A model generated the notes under the pieces. The model searched no databases and had not been told where the DNA came from. It saw only the letters and a program-made list of their open reading frames with translations. A program made the translations under genes and the position numbers. From assembly GCA_017443945.1 (NCBI GenBank), contig JAFSXS010000029.1:1-34266 (forward strand): a stretch of 34,266 bases of DNA, written 5' to 3'. Of the stretch, positions 7,252 to 25,670 are shown one piece after another; the stretch's first letter is position 1, and every line of letters begins with the position of its first letter. The DNA is from Synergistaceae bacterium (GTDB taxonomy: Bacteria; Synergistota; Synergistia; Synergistales; Aminobacteriaceae).

Positions 7252-7462
7252 ATTTTTGCGGGACTATGGGATTATTTCACGATTTGCGGTTATTGGCCTT
7301 GTGCGTTAATTTTGTGTGCTGCTGTAAAAGTTTATTTGCGGACTATGTGATTATTTTGCGATTACCGGTCTTATGCGTTAATTTGTGTGTGCTGTTATAA
7401 AGTTTATTTGCTGGTCATGCGATTATTTCACGATTTGCGATTATTGGTCTTGTGCGTTAAAC
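7252..7462. repeat. Three degenerate ~72-79 bp tandem repeats in a gene-free stretch
   Basis: The interval 7096-7535 holds no credible gene. Within it, a unit repeats three times: GCGGACTATG-like start, GATTATTT, CGATT(T/A)GCG-like centre, then TTATTGG(C/T)CTTGTGCGTTAA and TGTGTGCTG...AAAGTTTAT. The GCGTTA landmark occurs at 7303, 7375 and 7454, giving periods of 72 and 79. The first unit begins TTTTTGCGGGACTATGGGATT, nearly the same as the hairpin downstream of the flavoprotein gene at 22809 (TTTTTGCGGGAGAATGGGATT), so it may derive from duplicated terminator-like DNA. Confidence 0.6.
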
Positions 7463-12787: not shown

Positions 12788-14074
12788 TGTCTGTAGCCTC
12801 CTTAGCTTTGTTTATGAGATAGTCTGCAATGTGTTCGCCTGCTGTGCCTAGATTCGCAATATTTTCACGCACAAATTCACTTATGGATTTAACATTTTCA
12901 GCCTTTAATGACTCATTGACGATTGCAGAAATATTATTTATTTCACTTGCTTTAATGGGTACGCACAATTTATCAGCAATGGACTTCATGTCATCGGGCA
13001 GGACGCTCATTTCAAACGAGTCAAGGTTTTCTGCTTTGACCTCAAGAGCTATAACGGGTCTCTCATAAATTACGGCGTAATCAAGTCTTATTGCTGAAGT
13101 GTCAGAAATTAATAAATCTGCGCATGATAAAGACTCTGCCGGGTTTGGACTCTCATCCCATTTTGCATTTGGTAAGGAATCAATTAATTTTTTTGCACGG
13201 TCTAATAGTGCTGGTTCTGCTTTTCTTGACTGAGGGTGAGGACGGAAAATTATATCAAAATCTTTCGCTAATTCCTTCACGAAATCAAGAGAATAATACG
13301 ACATAAAGCCTTTATCACCCCATGACGGCGCAATTAATATAACTTTGCGGGAATTTATTTTTTTTGCGGGCTTATCGTTATATAATTTGTCCCAGTAAGG
13401 CAGGCCAAGAGAGATTATTTCTTTTGCGGGGAGATTTCGCAATTTTTCCAGAAAACGTATAGCGGGAACTGCATAATTTCCGGGCACGCAGATTAAATCG
13501 TAAGAATCTAATCCAAATTTTTTATAATATGGCGCTCCTACTGGATCATGAAAAACGTACGCAAGATATTTTACTTTGTGAGGTCTTGAAATGGGATAAC
13601 CTGGTGTGCCTATATTGGGAGTCGTCGTAAGCATGATTTTGCATGAAACTTGATTTATTCTCGCATATGCTGCACTGCCTTCACCGATGTATTTTGCTGT
13701 CATTAATTTATTGCGGATTTTAAGTGCAGGATCTTCTATATCCATTGTGAAATAAGAAAACGCTTGATTTTTCGCGAGTAATGCATTAACAATCGGCTCA
13801 AAAGTGTTCCAATAATTGCGCCCTTCAGAAAAAATTACAATTTCGTTTGCTGAGTGTGAATCTTTGTGAGTCTTTCCTGTTAAACGGTAATAAAGACTTC
13901 TGACTGCAAATGCACTGACGCTGACAAGAGTTACTGCTACATAGATTAAAGCATTTCCCGCACTGGGATCGAGATACGCCGACGCAGTTCCCGGACTAGC
14001 AAGCAAGAACGCTAAAACCAGTGATAGAGCGTACCCCCCCCCCCTTGTGTAAATTTACTTAGAAATTTTTGCAT
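12777..14074 (-). CDS. CDP-glycerol glycerophosphotransferase-like protein, phase-variable (frameshifted in this sequence by an 11-G run)
   Basis: The natural start is ATG 14074-14072, with AGGAG 11 nt upstream. It encodes MQKFLSKFTQ, then the G run, then YALSLVLAFLLASPGTASA, a good signal peptide or anchor, followed by YLDPSAGN and a second hydrophobic helix. With 11 G the frame ends at TAG after 20 codons; with 9 or 12 G the full product is about 432 aa. The body matches the TagB/TagF glycerophosphotransferase family: YVFHDPVGAPYYKK, ISLGLPYWDK, APSWGDKGF, FRPHPQSRK and ISDTSAIRLDYAVIYERPVIA. An internal TTG at 14006 could in principle start a 409-aa form but has no ribosome site. The protein likely adds glycerol phosphate or similar units to a surface polymer, together with the coupled YidC-sulfatase gene. 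Confidence 0.8.
14034..14044. repeat. Mononucleotide tract of 11 C (11 G on the coding strand)
   Basis: The run lies between codon 10 of the glycerophosphotransferase-like gene and its signal-peptide core. Length changes by slipped-strand mispairing would move the gene in and out of frame. In-frame lengths are multiples of three; 11 is out of frame. Confidence 0.9.
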
Positions 14075-22811: not shown

Positions 22812-22849
22812 GCGGGAGAATGGGATTATTTCCTGTCCTCCCGTTTTTT
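22812..22849 (+). terminator. Intrinsic terminator of the flavoprotein gene
   Basis: GCGGGAG...CTCCCG forms the stem with additional inner pairing, followed by six T. It insulates the phase-variable promoter that begins 19 nt further on. Confidence 0.85.
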
Positions 22850-22867
22850 GTTGCTTGAAATTGCTTA

Positions 22868-22895
22868 TTGACTAATACCCCCCCCCCGGTATAAT
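22868..22895 (+). promoter_or_regulatory. Phase-variable promoter of the RiPP operon
   Basis: TTGACT (22868-22873) and a perfect TATAAT (22890-22895) are separated by 16 nt: AATA, ten C, GG. The C run occupies most of the spacer, so gain or loss of C changes the -35/-10 distance and hence promoter strength. At 16 nt the promoter should be somewhat weaker than at the 17-nt optimum (11 C). Transcription would start near 22902, about 30 nt before the first ATG. Confidence 0.8.
22878..22887. repeat. Mononucleotide tract of 10 C inside a promoter spacer
   Basis: Ten consecutive C in an otherwise AT-rich intergenic region. It is the second G/C homopolymer of 10 or more in this window; the other is in the glycerophosphotransferase-like gene. 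Confidence 0.9.
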
Positions 22896-22931
22896 TTACG
22901 CAAATAATAATAGAAAAGCGGCGATAATCTC

Positions 22932-23099
22932 ATGGCAACAGTAAAATGGCAAAGTGTTTGTTCTTGCTGCGGTAAGGGCGGCTCTACAACATAAATAAAC
23001 GAAAGTCAAGGTCAGCCCCGTTCTAATCCGTCAAGTATCGGCGGTAAATGTCCATCAAGTCCCGACGGAAAACACAAACCGAAATGGGTGAAGGTTTAA
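22932..23099 (+). pseudogene. Small Cys-rich protein (55 codons) interrupted by an in-frame TAA at codon 21
   Basis: From ATG 22932 the frame gives MATVKWQSVCSCCGKGGSTT, then TAA (22992-22994). The same frame then continues as INESQGQPRSNPSSIGG and KCPSSPDGKHKPKWVKV to a TAA at 23097-23099. The paired parts (VCSCCGKGG and a distal KCPSS...GKHKPKW) look like one small zinc-ribbon-like protein. Its final stop overlaps the ATG of the next gene (TAATG), which fits a real, translationally coupled gene. The simplest reading is a recent nonsense mutation; a 20-aa Cys-rich peptide as the true product, or stop read-through, cannot be excluded. It is the first ORF behind the phase-variable promoter. 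Function unknown. Confidence 0.6.
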
Positions 23100-23473
23100 T
23101 GGCTGATGAAAAATTAGATCCTAAGTATGCTAAAAATTATTCAGATGACAATTTCTGGGACAAAATTAAAGGCGTTCTCAAGTCTGCCGGGCGTGAAATA
23201 GTTTATAAAGCTCTTCAATTATATTACGTCATGAAGCGTCCTGAGTGTCCTGCTGCGATAAAAACGGCGATAGTTGCGGCGTTAGGTTATTTTATTCTGC
23301 CGTTGGATCTAGTGCCCGATTTTATTCCGGTTGTGGGCTTCACTGATGATTTAGCGGCGATTGGTGCAGCTCTCTTAATGTCCCAAATGTATGTAAACGA
23401 TGAAGTCAAAGCACAGGCACGTGAAAGTCTTGATAATTTTTTCGGGGCTGGAACTTCTGTCGGGATTGATTAA
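23099..23473 (+). CDS. DUF1232 (YkvA-like) small membrane-associated protein
   Basis: 124 aa from the ATG of the TAATG junction at 23099; a longer in-frame start at 23048 lies inside the upstream ORF and gives no conserved sequence. The core AAIKTAIVAALGYFILPLDL and VPDFIPVVGFTDDLAAIGAA is the DUF1232 signature (GYFxxPxDLxPDFIPVxGxxDD). It lies within a hydrophobic stretch that may form a membrane hairpin. The N-terminal ~35 residues are charged and the C-terminus carries a short helix. The molecular role of the family is not known; some members lie next to toxin or peptide-export genes. It sits in the RiPP operon between the broken Cys-rich ORF and a 38-aa mini-protein. Confidence 0.85.
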   Translation: MADEKLDPKYAKNYSDDNFWDKIKGVLKSAGREIVYKALQLYYVMKRPECPAAIKTAIVAALGYFILPLDLVPDFIPVVGFTDDLAAIGAALLMSQMYVNDEVKAQARESLDNFFGAGTSVGID

Positions 23474-23488
23474 AGGAGTGATATTTTT

Positions 23489-23605
23489 ATGAGCAATTAT
23501 ACAGCGGTACTCGGCGAACTTGCGTCGGGGTCTGAACGAGGTAAGGGCGCAATCACTGAATCAGAATTTAACGAGAAAAAACGCGCTCTCATGGACAAAA
23601 TTTAA
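23489..23605 (+). CDS. 38-aa mini-protein with a SHOCT-like C-terminus
   Basis: ATG 23489 is preceded by AAAGGAG with ~10 nt spacing, a good ribosome site. The product begins MSNYTAVLGELASGSERGKG and ends AITESEFNEKKRALMDKI. The second half resembles the short C-terminal (SHOCT) motif, GxITexEFexkKxxLL, usually found at the end of larger bacterial proteins as an oligomerisation helix. The gene is 15 nt after the DUF1232 stop and 2 nt before the next ATG, consistent with an operon member. Function unknown. Confidence 0.55.
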   Translation: MSNYTAVLGELASGSERGKGAITESEFNEKKRALMDKI

Positions 23606-23607
23606 TT

Positions 23608-23910
23608 ATGTTTACTTGCAAAAAATGCGGCTCCTGCTGTGAAATGATGAACTTCCTGCAAGCTCAAAATTTGCCGGAAATTTCACAAATAGCAGCTCAA
23701 TTAAATAACGGTTCGGGAACTTGCAAATATTTTGACTCTGACTCTAGGCTCTGCAAAATCTATGACTCACGGCCAATAATCTGCAACAACAAAAAATTTT
23801 ATGAAGAGAGACTAAAAAATGTCATGACACGTGAAGAATTTGACGAGATTTTATTTACATCATGCAATAAAGTTAGGAGCAGCCATCATGAAAGACTACG
23901 CGAAAATTAA
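23608..23910 (+). CDS. CxxCGxCC (YkgJ-like) cysteine-cluster protein
   Basis: 100 aa. The N-terminus FTCKKCGSCCEMM is the hallmark of the YkgJ/CxxCxxCC family, thought to bind zinc or an iron-sulfur cluster. Later Cys residues (GTCKYF, RLCKIYDSRPIICNN and SCNK) complete the usual pattern GxCxxLxxxxxCxIYxxRPxxC. It starts 2 nt after the mini-protein stop, has no strong ribosome site of its own, and its end overlaps the radical SAM gene by 23 nt. In this context it may help iron-sulfur handling or the modification chemistry of the neighbouring radical SAM enzyme; that is inference. Confidence 0.8.
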   Translation: MFTCKKCGSCCEMMNFLQAQNLPEISQIAAQLNNGSGTCKYFDSDSRLCKIYDSRPIICNNKKFYEERLKNVMTREEFDEILFTSCNKVRSSHHERLREN

Positions 23911-24934
23911 TTTTTTACGAGACAAGAAAGCAGCTCAGGACGAAGCAAATTATCTGAATCGCCTTATATCAGAAAATTTATATCCTGAAAAATTTATTAT
24001 GCCTCTGACTCTGCAATTTGAGCTTACTTCACATTGTAACGTTCATTGCAAGCACTGTTATAACCGTTCGGGCGAGAATAATTTATCAGCTGACAGAATG
24101 ACTCCCGAAAACTGGAAAATTTTTGCGCGTTATCTCGTCAAGCACGGGGGAATCTTTCAATGCGTCATTTCAGGGGGTGAGCCTCTTTTACTGGGTGATG
24201 ACTTATTCGAGATAATGGACATTTTACACGATGACGGAACAATTTTTTTGCTGATCTCTAACGGTTTATTGATGACTCCCGAAAAAGTTAAATCATTCGC
24301 GAAATATCGTTATAAATGGCTGCAAATTTCAATTGACGGCGCGACTCGTGAACGTCATGACTCATTCAGGCAGAAAAACGGCAGCTTTGACGCGGCAATA
24401 AAAGCGGTTTTCATGCTCTCAAGTGCGGGGATTCCTGTAATGATTGCGCACTCTGTAACGCCCGAAAATTTATGTGAACTCGATAAAATGTGCTCGCTTG
24501 CTTATGAGTTAGGGGCGGCAGGTATAATTTTAGGCGAGATAATGCCCAGCGGACGAACTTTTTTGAATCAGGAAATATTATTAAATCACGAGCAGAGAAA
24601 TATTTTATACGAGAAAATTAACGAGAATGCAGCCAAATTTTCCGGAAAAATGCAGGTACAAAGGAGTTCAGGCACAAAGATTCAATTAATGCGCGCACAA
24701 AATTCACCAGTAACAGGAGCAATTATCAGACCGGACGGAAATATAAGACTCGATTGCGTTGCTCCGTTTGTTATTGGGAATGTGTTAGATGAAGATTTTT
24801 GCGAAATTTGGCAGAGTAAAGCCCCTGACATTTGGAAGAGGCCGGAAATTGTTAATTATATTGACTCATGGGACGACATCGACGAAATCAATCACGGAAT
24901 CAAGAATTATTTTGACTCTGACGTGATACTATAA
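23888..24934 (+). CDS. Radical SAM enzyme, putative RiPP maturase with reduced SPASM-like C-terminus
   Basis: 348 aa from ATG 23888, with TAGGAG 9 nt upstream; the longer in-frame start at 23831 lies inside the preceding gene. The N-terminal region LTLQFELTSHCNVHCKHCYN (near residue 40) supplies the CxxxCxxC motif that binds the [4Fe-4S]-SAM cluster. CVISGGEPLLLGDD (near 96) is the GGEP SAM-binding motif and QISIDGATRERHDSFR (near 152) a typical later strand. The C-terminal part, IIRPDGNIRLDCVAPFVIGN followed by VLDEDFCEIW, keeps the SPASM layout (DGxVxxC...GNV...EIW) but holds only two Cys, too few for two auxiliary clusters. Two paralogous small peptides and a PqqD-like protein follow at once, so it probably modifies those peptides. 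The modification type is unknown. Confidence 0.88.
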   Translation: MKDYAKINFLRDKKAAQDEANYLNRLISENLYPEKFIMPLTLQFELTSHCNVHCKHCYNRSGENNLSADRMTPENWKIFARYLVKHGGIFQCVISGGEPLLLGDDLFEIMDILHDDGTIFLLISNGLLMTPEKVKSFAKYRYKWLQISIDGATRERHDSFRQKNGSFDAAIKAVFMLSSAGIPVMIAHSVTPENLCELDKMCSLAYELGAAGIILGEIMPSGRTFLNQEILLNHEQRNILYEKINENAAKFSGKMQVQRSSGTKIQLMRAQNSPVTGAIIRPDGNIRLDCVAPFVIGNVLDEDFCEIWQSKAPDIWKRPEIVNYIDSWDDIDEINHGIKNYFDSDVIL

Positions 24935-24950: not shown

Positions 24951-25127
24951 ATGAAGCAATATTCTAAACCTGAAATAATAAGCAGCTCCAAGCCCGTTTT
25001 TGCGTTCCCTGCTGTAGGTCTTGCGTTAATAGGCGGTTATGCGGCTGGAAAGGCAGTAACAAAAATTTTTGAGGCGAGTATGTCAGCTCGTGAAAATTTG
25101 CTTGAACTCGAACCCGTTATATCATGA
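24951..25127 (+). CDS. Putative RiPP precursor peptide 1 (58 aa)
   Basis: ATG 24951 has a near-perfect AAGGAGG site 9 nt upstream, the strongest in the operon, as expected for an abundant peptide. The product starts MKQYSKPEIISSSKPVFAFP, continues with a Gly/Ala-rich hydrophobic stretch (VGLALIGGYAAGKAV) and ends ENLLELEPVIS. It shares M-K-x-Y, P7, I9, S11-S12 and the block FAFPA (17-21) with the 60-aa peptide encoded downstream, plus a terminal LEP followed by V or I. The conserved N-terminal half looks like a leader recognised by the PqqD-like protein. It contains no Cys, so thioether (sactipeptide-type) chemistry is not possible within it. The stop overlaps the ATG of the PqqD-like gene (ATGA). 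Confidence 0.75.
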   Translation: MKQYSKPEIISSSKPVFAFPAVGLALIGGYAAGKAVTKIFEASMSARENLLELEPVIS

Positions 25128-25426
25128 ATGCTGCTTATAATATGCTGAAAAATTTTATTCCCGTTCGTAATGCCATGAAAGTTAGGGAGGACGGAAATTT
25201 TTTAATCGCTGCTAACAACGAGAAAGAAATTTTTTATCTCAACTCGACGGCGCGGGACTTCTGGGAATTTATCGACGGAAATATAAGCGTTGACTCAATC
25301 TGCGAAAAATTTTTATGCGAATACGATATTAACCGCGACTCACTTGAGAATGATTTAGTGAATCTTTTGCGCGACTTACAATGGAAAAAATTAATTAGAA
25401 TCAAAATAGGAGGTGATTTGTCATGA
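25124..25426 (+). CDS. PqqD-like peptide recognition protein (RRE)
   Basis: 100 aa. The segment DGNFLIAANNEKEIFYLNST followed by ARDFWEFIDGNISVDSICEKF is the PqqD pattern (xxLNxTAxxxWxxIDGxxSxxxI). The helix SLENDLVNLLRDLQWKKLI completes the winged-helix-like fold. PqqD family proteins bind leader peptides of RiPP precursors and present them to a radical SAM partner. Here it lies between two precursor candidates, with ATGA overlaps at both ends, so stoichiometry is probably set by coupled translation. Its Ile/Lys-rich tail is unremarkable. Confidence 0.85.
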   Translation: MNAAYNMLKNFIPVRNAMKVREDGNFLIAANNEKEIFYLNSTARDFWEFIDGNISVDSICEKFLCEYDINRDSLENDLVNLLRDLQWKKLIRIKIGGDLS

Positions 25427-25605
25427 AAGAATATATAACGCCGTCAATAACATCAAGTAATACAGGAAAATTTGCGTTTCCTGCAATTATAGCGGGGTTA
25501 AGCATTGCTGAGGCATTTGCATTAGGAGCGGCTGCGGCTATTAAGGGCGATAAAAGCGTTTCTGTTGACATGCCTTCAGGACTCGAACCGATATACGCGT
25601 GTTAA
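25423..25605 (+). CDS. Putative RiPP precursor peptide 2 (60 aa)
   Basis: The ATG overlaps the stop of the PqqD-like gene (ATGA), with AGGAGGTG just upstream. The product starts MKEYITPSITSSNTGKFAFP, followed by a very Ala-rich hydrophobic stretch (IIAGLSIAEAFALGAAAAIKG), then DKSVSVDMPSGLEPIYAC. Twelve of its first 21 residues are identical to precursor 1, and both end in an LEP motif, so they are paralogs with a shared leader and different cores. Unlike peptide 1 it ends in Cys. The amphipathic Ala/Gly segment would suit membrane insertion, as in many bacteriocins, but activity is unknown. It is the last gene before a strong terminator. Confidence 0.75.
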   Translation: MKEYITPSITSSNTGKFAFPAIIAGLSIAEAFALGAAAAIKGDKSVSVDMPSGLEPIYAC

Positions 25606-25612
25606 TTTTTTT

Positions 25613-25649
25613 GCGGGAGTGCGGGATTTGTTCTCGTTCTCCCATTTTT
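25613..25649 (+). terminator. Intrinsic terminator of the RiPP operon
   Basis: An outer stem GGGAG/CTCCC (25615-25619 and 25639-25643) encloses an inner stem CGGGA/TCTCG (25622-25626 and 25632-25636), followed by ATTTTTA. Confidence 0.85.
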
Positions 25650-25670
25650 ATTAATGAAGGTAAAATATAT

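Follow-up and report, generated by a model that had tools for sequence, protein, structure and literature searches.

A poly-C spacer in the promoter of a radical-SAM/PqqD peptide operon: a candidate slippage switch and a companion box in a genus of Synergistota

The control of gene expression by slippage within a promoter spacer is already known. In Neisseria fetA, a poly-C tract between the -10 and -35 elements alters expression (PMC5320596). Both fetA (poly-C) and porA (poly-G) carry a homopolymer between sigma-70-like -35 and -10 boxes, and its length varies among relatives (PMC5320596). The locus described here shares these properties but differs in belonging to another phylum, in preceding a peptide operon rather than an outer-membrane protein gene, and in carrying a conserved box, GTAWWWTTRCKNA, beside the run. 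Stochastic homopolymer switching has also been predicted for a bacteriocin-like peptide system, the nap island of N. gonorrhoeae; in the parts of that source that describe the island, the runs lie in coding sequences (napR, napC), whereas here the run lies in the promoter, and no radical-SAM maturase is described, whereas a putative one is encoded in the present operon (PMC11798529).

The operon itself resembles mycofactocin, PQQ and lasso-type PqqD systems, in that a radical-SAM protein, a PqqD-like protein and short peptides are encoded together; in contrast to those systems, its NCBIfam matches all fall far below the curated cut-offs. Moreover, the genus shares with the poly-G loci of Campylobacter and Neisseria coding-strand G runs in glycosyltransferase, LicD and similar genes, with mixed frames, but it differs from them in having a one-sided, frame-independent conserved DNA box at a fixed span. 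We know of no comparable box in those loci; a limited full-text literature search, which is weak evidence, found no run-flanking motifs, and contingency loci in Synergistota did not turn up in full-text searches either. The novelty lies not in the mechanism but in the phylum, in the peptide operon, in the spacer length of 20 nt and in the box.

The promoter and the operon that follows it

The window, that is, the whole stretch of 34,266 nucleotides that was analysed, makes up contig C29 of the draft genome G000 (2.4 Mb). An earlier note had described a TTGACT/TATAAT pair separated by a 16-nt spacer containing a C10 run, and both its coordinates and its spacing (AATA-C10-GG) were confirmed (Table 1). 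Within the 8 kb scanned, the site at 22868-22895 had the highest score of all promoter-like sites (11 of 12). The pattern TTGACW-N4-C6-N0..8-TATAAT matched once in the window and not at all in 100 shuffled sequences. As in loci of the fetA/porA type, a homopolymer thus occupies the interval between the two boxes. The terminator that had been proposed to insulate the promoter from the gene upstream is real, with a stable fold and a T tail.

Table 1. Positions of the promoter, the operon and the second run in the window
Feature	Position	Strand	Basis or remark
Intrinsic terminator of upstream flavoprotein gene	22812..22850	+	hairpin 22812-22844, then T run; fold -19.2 kcal/mol, z -5.0
-35 hexamer TTGACT	22868..22873	+	sequence; TTGAAT in G007 ortholog
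AATA, 5' part of promoter spacer	22874-22877	+	sequence
C10 run in promoter spacer	22878..22887	+	sequence; C15 in G007
GG, 3' end of promoter spacer	22888-22889	+	sequence
-10 hexamer TATAAT	22890-22895	+	within run-associated box TATAATTTACGCA
Run-associated box TATAATTTACGCA	22890..22902	+	identical in G007
Small Cys-containing ORF, 20 aa then TAA	22932..22994	+	homologous frame in G007 open for 56 aa
DUF1232 protein	23099..23473	+	PF06803; missing from G007 operon
38-aa ORF	23489..23605	+	no family match
CxxCxxCC metal-cluster protein	23608..23910	+	PF03692
Radical-SAM protein, putative peptide maturase	23888..24934	+	PF04055 1.2e-24
58-aa peptide MKQYSKPEIISSS..., candidate precursor	24951..25127	+	sequence; no family match
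PqqD-family protein, putative peptide-binding chaperone	25124..25426	+	PF05402 1.4e-12
60-aa peptide MKEYITPSITSS..., candidate precursor	25423..25605	+	sequence; no family match
Operon-closing intrinsic terminator	about 25615..25650	+	fold -18.3 kcal/mol, z -4.6
G11, second run of window	14034..14044	-	about codon 11 of CDP-glycerol glycerophosphotransferase-like gene
Run-associated box of second run, GTAAATTTACTTA	14049..14061	+	sequence

The description of the operon as RiPP-type held for the radical-SAM protein, the PqqD-family protein and the two short peptides. One correction concerns the first ORF, which stops at TAA after 20 codons; homology to the 56-aa ORF of the sister species G007 can still be recognised in the frame 3' of this TAA. 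A recognition protein of the PqqD/RRE type is present, as PF05402 is matched at 48.2 bits (cut-off 23.4), whereas the SPASM match on the radical-SAM protein (20.1 bits) lies just below its cut-off of 21.5. The 58-aa and 60-aa peptides have MKxYxxPxIxSS...FAFPA in common. The radical-SAM gene was found in 9 of the 43 species of the genus, and its closest public records are rumen Synergistales/Synergistaceae metagenome-assembled genomes (MAGs). No run of at least 7 nt lies upstream of six other copies of the operon in the genus or of those in two public MAGs. In particular, the relatives from red deer and goat rumen conserve the operon at 71-73% identity and lack the run. In the clade of the window, the operon may be decaying, as judged from a frameshifted radical-SAM gene in G007 and the shortened first ORF in the window.

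Variation in run length and the clustering of spacers at 20 nt

At the orthologous promoter, G007 reads TTGAAT-AATA-C15-TATAATTTACGCAAAT where the window reads TTGACT-AATA-C10-GG-TATAATTTACGCAAAT, so that the spacer is 19 nt long in the former and 16 nt in the latter. G007 retains both the promoter and the operon, with radical-SAM fragments 82-94% identical to the protein of the window. A fixed run length, which the earlier note had named as refuting its reading, is therefore not seen at the level of species, where C15 is found against C10 plus GG, and the difference between relatives at one promoter is of the fetA/porA kind, though between species only. Twelve runs are conserved in place between the two genomes, and the lengths differ in 8 of them (15/14, 11/10, 11/13, 10/15, 9/10, 13/9, 11/13 and 8/14, all being consensus values from species-level draft assemblies that may be miscounted). 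These differences support instability of the runs between species. An 8-C run in a DnaB helicase gene does not differ in length between the two species, and thus some runs need not be switches. The radical-SAM gene of G007 (L090) is split by a frameshift in a T run (T6, compared with T7 in the window), which may reflect decay, switching or an assembly error.

The promoter belongs to a recurrent class. The pattern TTGA-N3..6-C7-N1..20-TATAAT gave 31 matches, spread over 19 of the 43 species, whereas the reversed control gave 0. The spacers measure 20 nt in 17 of the 31 promoters, 19 nt in six, 21 nt in three and 22 nt in one; because the pattern allowed spacers of about 9 to 31 nt, this peak was not built into the search. 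Longer runs go with shorter gaps (r -0.76), and the standard deviation of spacer length is 1.1 nt against 2.3 nt after permutation, with none of 20,000 permutations as tight, although the p-value is optimistic because some of the matches are related. The spacers of the genus thus cluster at 20 nt, unlike that of Neisseria porA, which is 17 nt. Auble and deHaseth reportedly worked on G/C-run spacers in E. coli promoters, a lead on why 20 nt might be suitable. Most of the poly-C promoters, and nearly all of those that could be read, sit upstream of an ORF; the products include secreted or membrane proteins, small hydrophobic proteins of one family and a glycosyltransferase, among others.

With 27 of the 31 promoters at 19-22 nt, the 16-nt spacer of the window is an outlier, which casts doubt on the tacit assumption of the earlier note that 16 nt is well suited to the ON state. 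The 16-nt allele may not be the ON state: given the clustering at 20 nt, expression would be expected to peak near 19-21 nt and to be weaker with 16 nt, although the ordinary optimum of 17 nt may apply instead. The proposed peptide switch also appears less isolated than had been suggested, since poly-C promoters recur in the genus, mostly before genes outside this operon, and no run of at least 7 nt precedes the most closely related copies of the operon elsewhere.

Two further features of promoters were observed. In 9 of 30 poly-C promoters (L222, L223, L224, L230, L231, L238, L245, L246 and L251), TATAAT is followed by GTCAA at a distance of exactly 9 nt, against a background of 3.6% anywhere in 24 nt. 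GTCAA is an inverted copy of the -35 TTGAC, and the two may be operator half-sites about 40 nt apart. In addition, G000 contains strong TTGACA-17-TATAAT promoters followed by tandem repeats of 5-8 nt directly at the presumed start site (L213-L221; C8:33133, C10:7899, C43:14904, C59:18786, C68:68561, C90:34743, C104:1697 and C110:8630), with the units GGCTCGT, CACTCAT, TTCGCAG (10 or more copies), CGACA, CGCCTAT and GGTTCACA (4 copies). They are located mostly upstream of genes of the surface-glycan type and are perhaps a second class of repeat-variable promoters.

Runs across the genus and the box beside them

C/G runs are strongly over-represented in the genome of the window, with 41 runs of at least 8 nt (5.9 expected) and 37 of at least 9 nt (1.1 expected under a first-order Markov model). 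Runs of at least 9 nt are present in all 43 species, in numbers from 2 to more than 50 per species. In G000, 27 of the 37 runs are poly-G on the coding strand, and the 22 coding runs with both flanks long enough to judge comprise 10 in frame and 12 out of frame. The host genes have surface-glycan functions, including LicD (2), GT2, GT10, GT87, GT92, FkbM, SDR, ATP-grasp sugar transfer, AlgX-like, CDP-alcohol transferase, a thiamine-diphosphate enzyme and others. Such hosts are typical contingency genes, and the runs of the genus look like contingency loci. The second run of the window is an example of a coding run whose length joins or breaks the flanking frames: its 11 G leave the parts of the gene out of frame, they would be in frame at 9 or 12, and the G007 ortholog has 13 G. 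Elsewhere in the window, an imperfect tandem repeat (period 72, 2.7 copies) lies at 7255-7460. A poly-G run in an acetolactate-synthase-like gene of another species (L179, G029) adjoins an N assembly gap, which suggests that assemblers stumble on such runs.

Gibbs sampling revealed a box, GTAWWWTTRCKNA, directly 3' of the C run on the C strand and about 16 nt from the 5' edge of the run, in promoters and coding genes alike. Scores of at least 11 of 13 were found at 21 of 37 runs in G000 and 21 of 43 in G007, against a background of 2-3%, whereas on the 5' side such scores occurred only once in G000 and four times in G007. Because part of the data had gone into refining the consensus, a test out of sample carries particular weight; with the consensus fixed beforehand, the box was found at 13 of 40 runs in G001, G002 and G004 against 1.6% (p 3e-14, a type of value that relatedness inflates). 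In the genus, run plus box gave 131 matches against 13 in reversed controls; in 40 genomes of 19 other genera of the family, it was at chance (20 against 18). Run and box are 3-4 nt apart in G000 and G007 and 6-9 nt apart in G005, but the sum of run and offset stays near 16 (18 in G005), equal to the sum of run and 3' gap in the promoter class. A conserved 5' counterpart of the box was sought and rejected, as the only general feature preceding the run is T..T[A/G].

Where it lies in a coding gene, the box uses two of the codon phases and largely avoids the one in which its TAA would be in frame; it is therefore a DNA-level feature rather than a peptide motif. In run-less orthologs the box is altered or missing, and in several cases the alignment shows no gap large enough for a cassette; it thus appears that run and box originate jointly and in place. 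Insertion of both as a mobile cassette was rejected as a general account, since run-less orthologs align across the Fe-ADH site, where they do so in place at a Gly-rich motif, and across the GT92 site, where only small changes are seen (L028, a run longer by 4 nt and substituted box bases). Two loci, L013 and L019, do show gains in length, of 15 and 6 nt, respectively.

Readings of the run and their implications

The promoter, its run, the insulated operon, the length difference between orthologs, the genus-wide class and the companion box are features of the sequence itself; we infer that slippage is frequent within populations, that it affects transcription and which of the lengths is ON. 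On balance, it is probable that the slippage-prone poly-C spacer of this sigma-70-type promoter switches the radical-SAM/PqqD peptide operon, as one of a large set in the genus. Gain or loss of C residues would shift the distance and the helical phase between the -35 and -10 boxes, and the shifted spacing would change transcription of the operon. Most runs of the genus, being poly-G in the coding strands of surface-glycan genes, would act as translational on/off switches, and the smaller class of poly-C promoter spacers would give on/off or graded control of transcription. On/off switching by the length-variable runs across the genus is likely.

The lack of a run before the other operon copies and the possible decay of the operon in this clade speak against the switch, and the tight spacing of the class is as compatible with a fixed functional length as with a switch. 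With a fixed length, the run would be a non-switching part of the promoter, a G/C-rich and perhaps A-form spacer that must span about 20 bp for the two boxes to be brought together and that selection holds at this length, as the concentration at 19-22 nt, the offsetting of gaps by run length and the near-perfect TTGAC and TATAAT would lead one to expect. We consider this unlikely, given the 16 nt of the window against the 19 nt of its ortholog and the variation in length and frame of most coding-gene runs in the same genome. That the runs are an assembly artefact of poly-G base-calling errors is very improbable: a few do lie at contig ends (for example C32, 13 nt from the end), but positions and flanks match in independently assembled species, the box is conserved and the gene classes are biased.

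The box may bear on what maintains the runs. It could mark, together with the run, a dedicated element, a putative site for a protein that makes or maintains hypermutable G/C runs, so that its overlap with the -10 box in the window would be incidental; this is compatible with the switch. Its one-sidedness, its recovery out of sample and at 21 of the 37 runs in G000, the span of about 16 nt shared by genes and promoters, its two codon phases, its absence or weakness in run-less orthologs and its chance frequency in the other genera sampled all argue for such an element, which is possible but doubtful, as the box is also -10-like, many runs lack a clear box and, to our knowledge, no protein is known to bind it. 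Alternatively, the box might be a -10 element everywhere and the coding runs spacers of weak antisense promoters, in which slippage would change frame and antisense transcription together. The form G-TAWWWT-TRCKN-A does resemble a -10 element plus start region, and the span from run to box matches that of true promoters. Yet coding runs show no enrichment of a -35 box on their upstream side, conservation is highest at the C three bases past the hexamer rather than at the -10 A, and the other exact promoters of the window's genome have no TTAC tail; we regard this account as quite improbable, and a site for a run-maintaining or run-reading protein is ranked above it. It can be proposed, tentatively, that a C/G run plus GTAWWWTTRCKNA, about 16 nt from the 5' edge of the run, is a genus-wide portable hypermutation module that arises in place in unrelated surface-glycan genes whatever the frame, yields variable spacers of 20 nt where a -35 box is added, and has its run length or mutation rate set by a dedicated box-binding protein.

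If these readings are correct, the box would be, as far as we know, the first sign of a conserved companion site at homopolymer switches, and it makes directly testable the old question of whether such runs mutate passively or with the help of a dedicated factor. The 20-nt class would challenge the usual reading of about 17 nt as always ON for spacers with G/C runs. An uncultured gut genus would, moreover, control its surface sugars by dozens of switches and have some further ones for secreted or peptide products.
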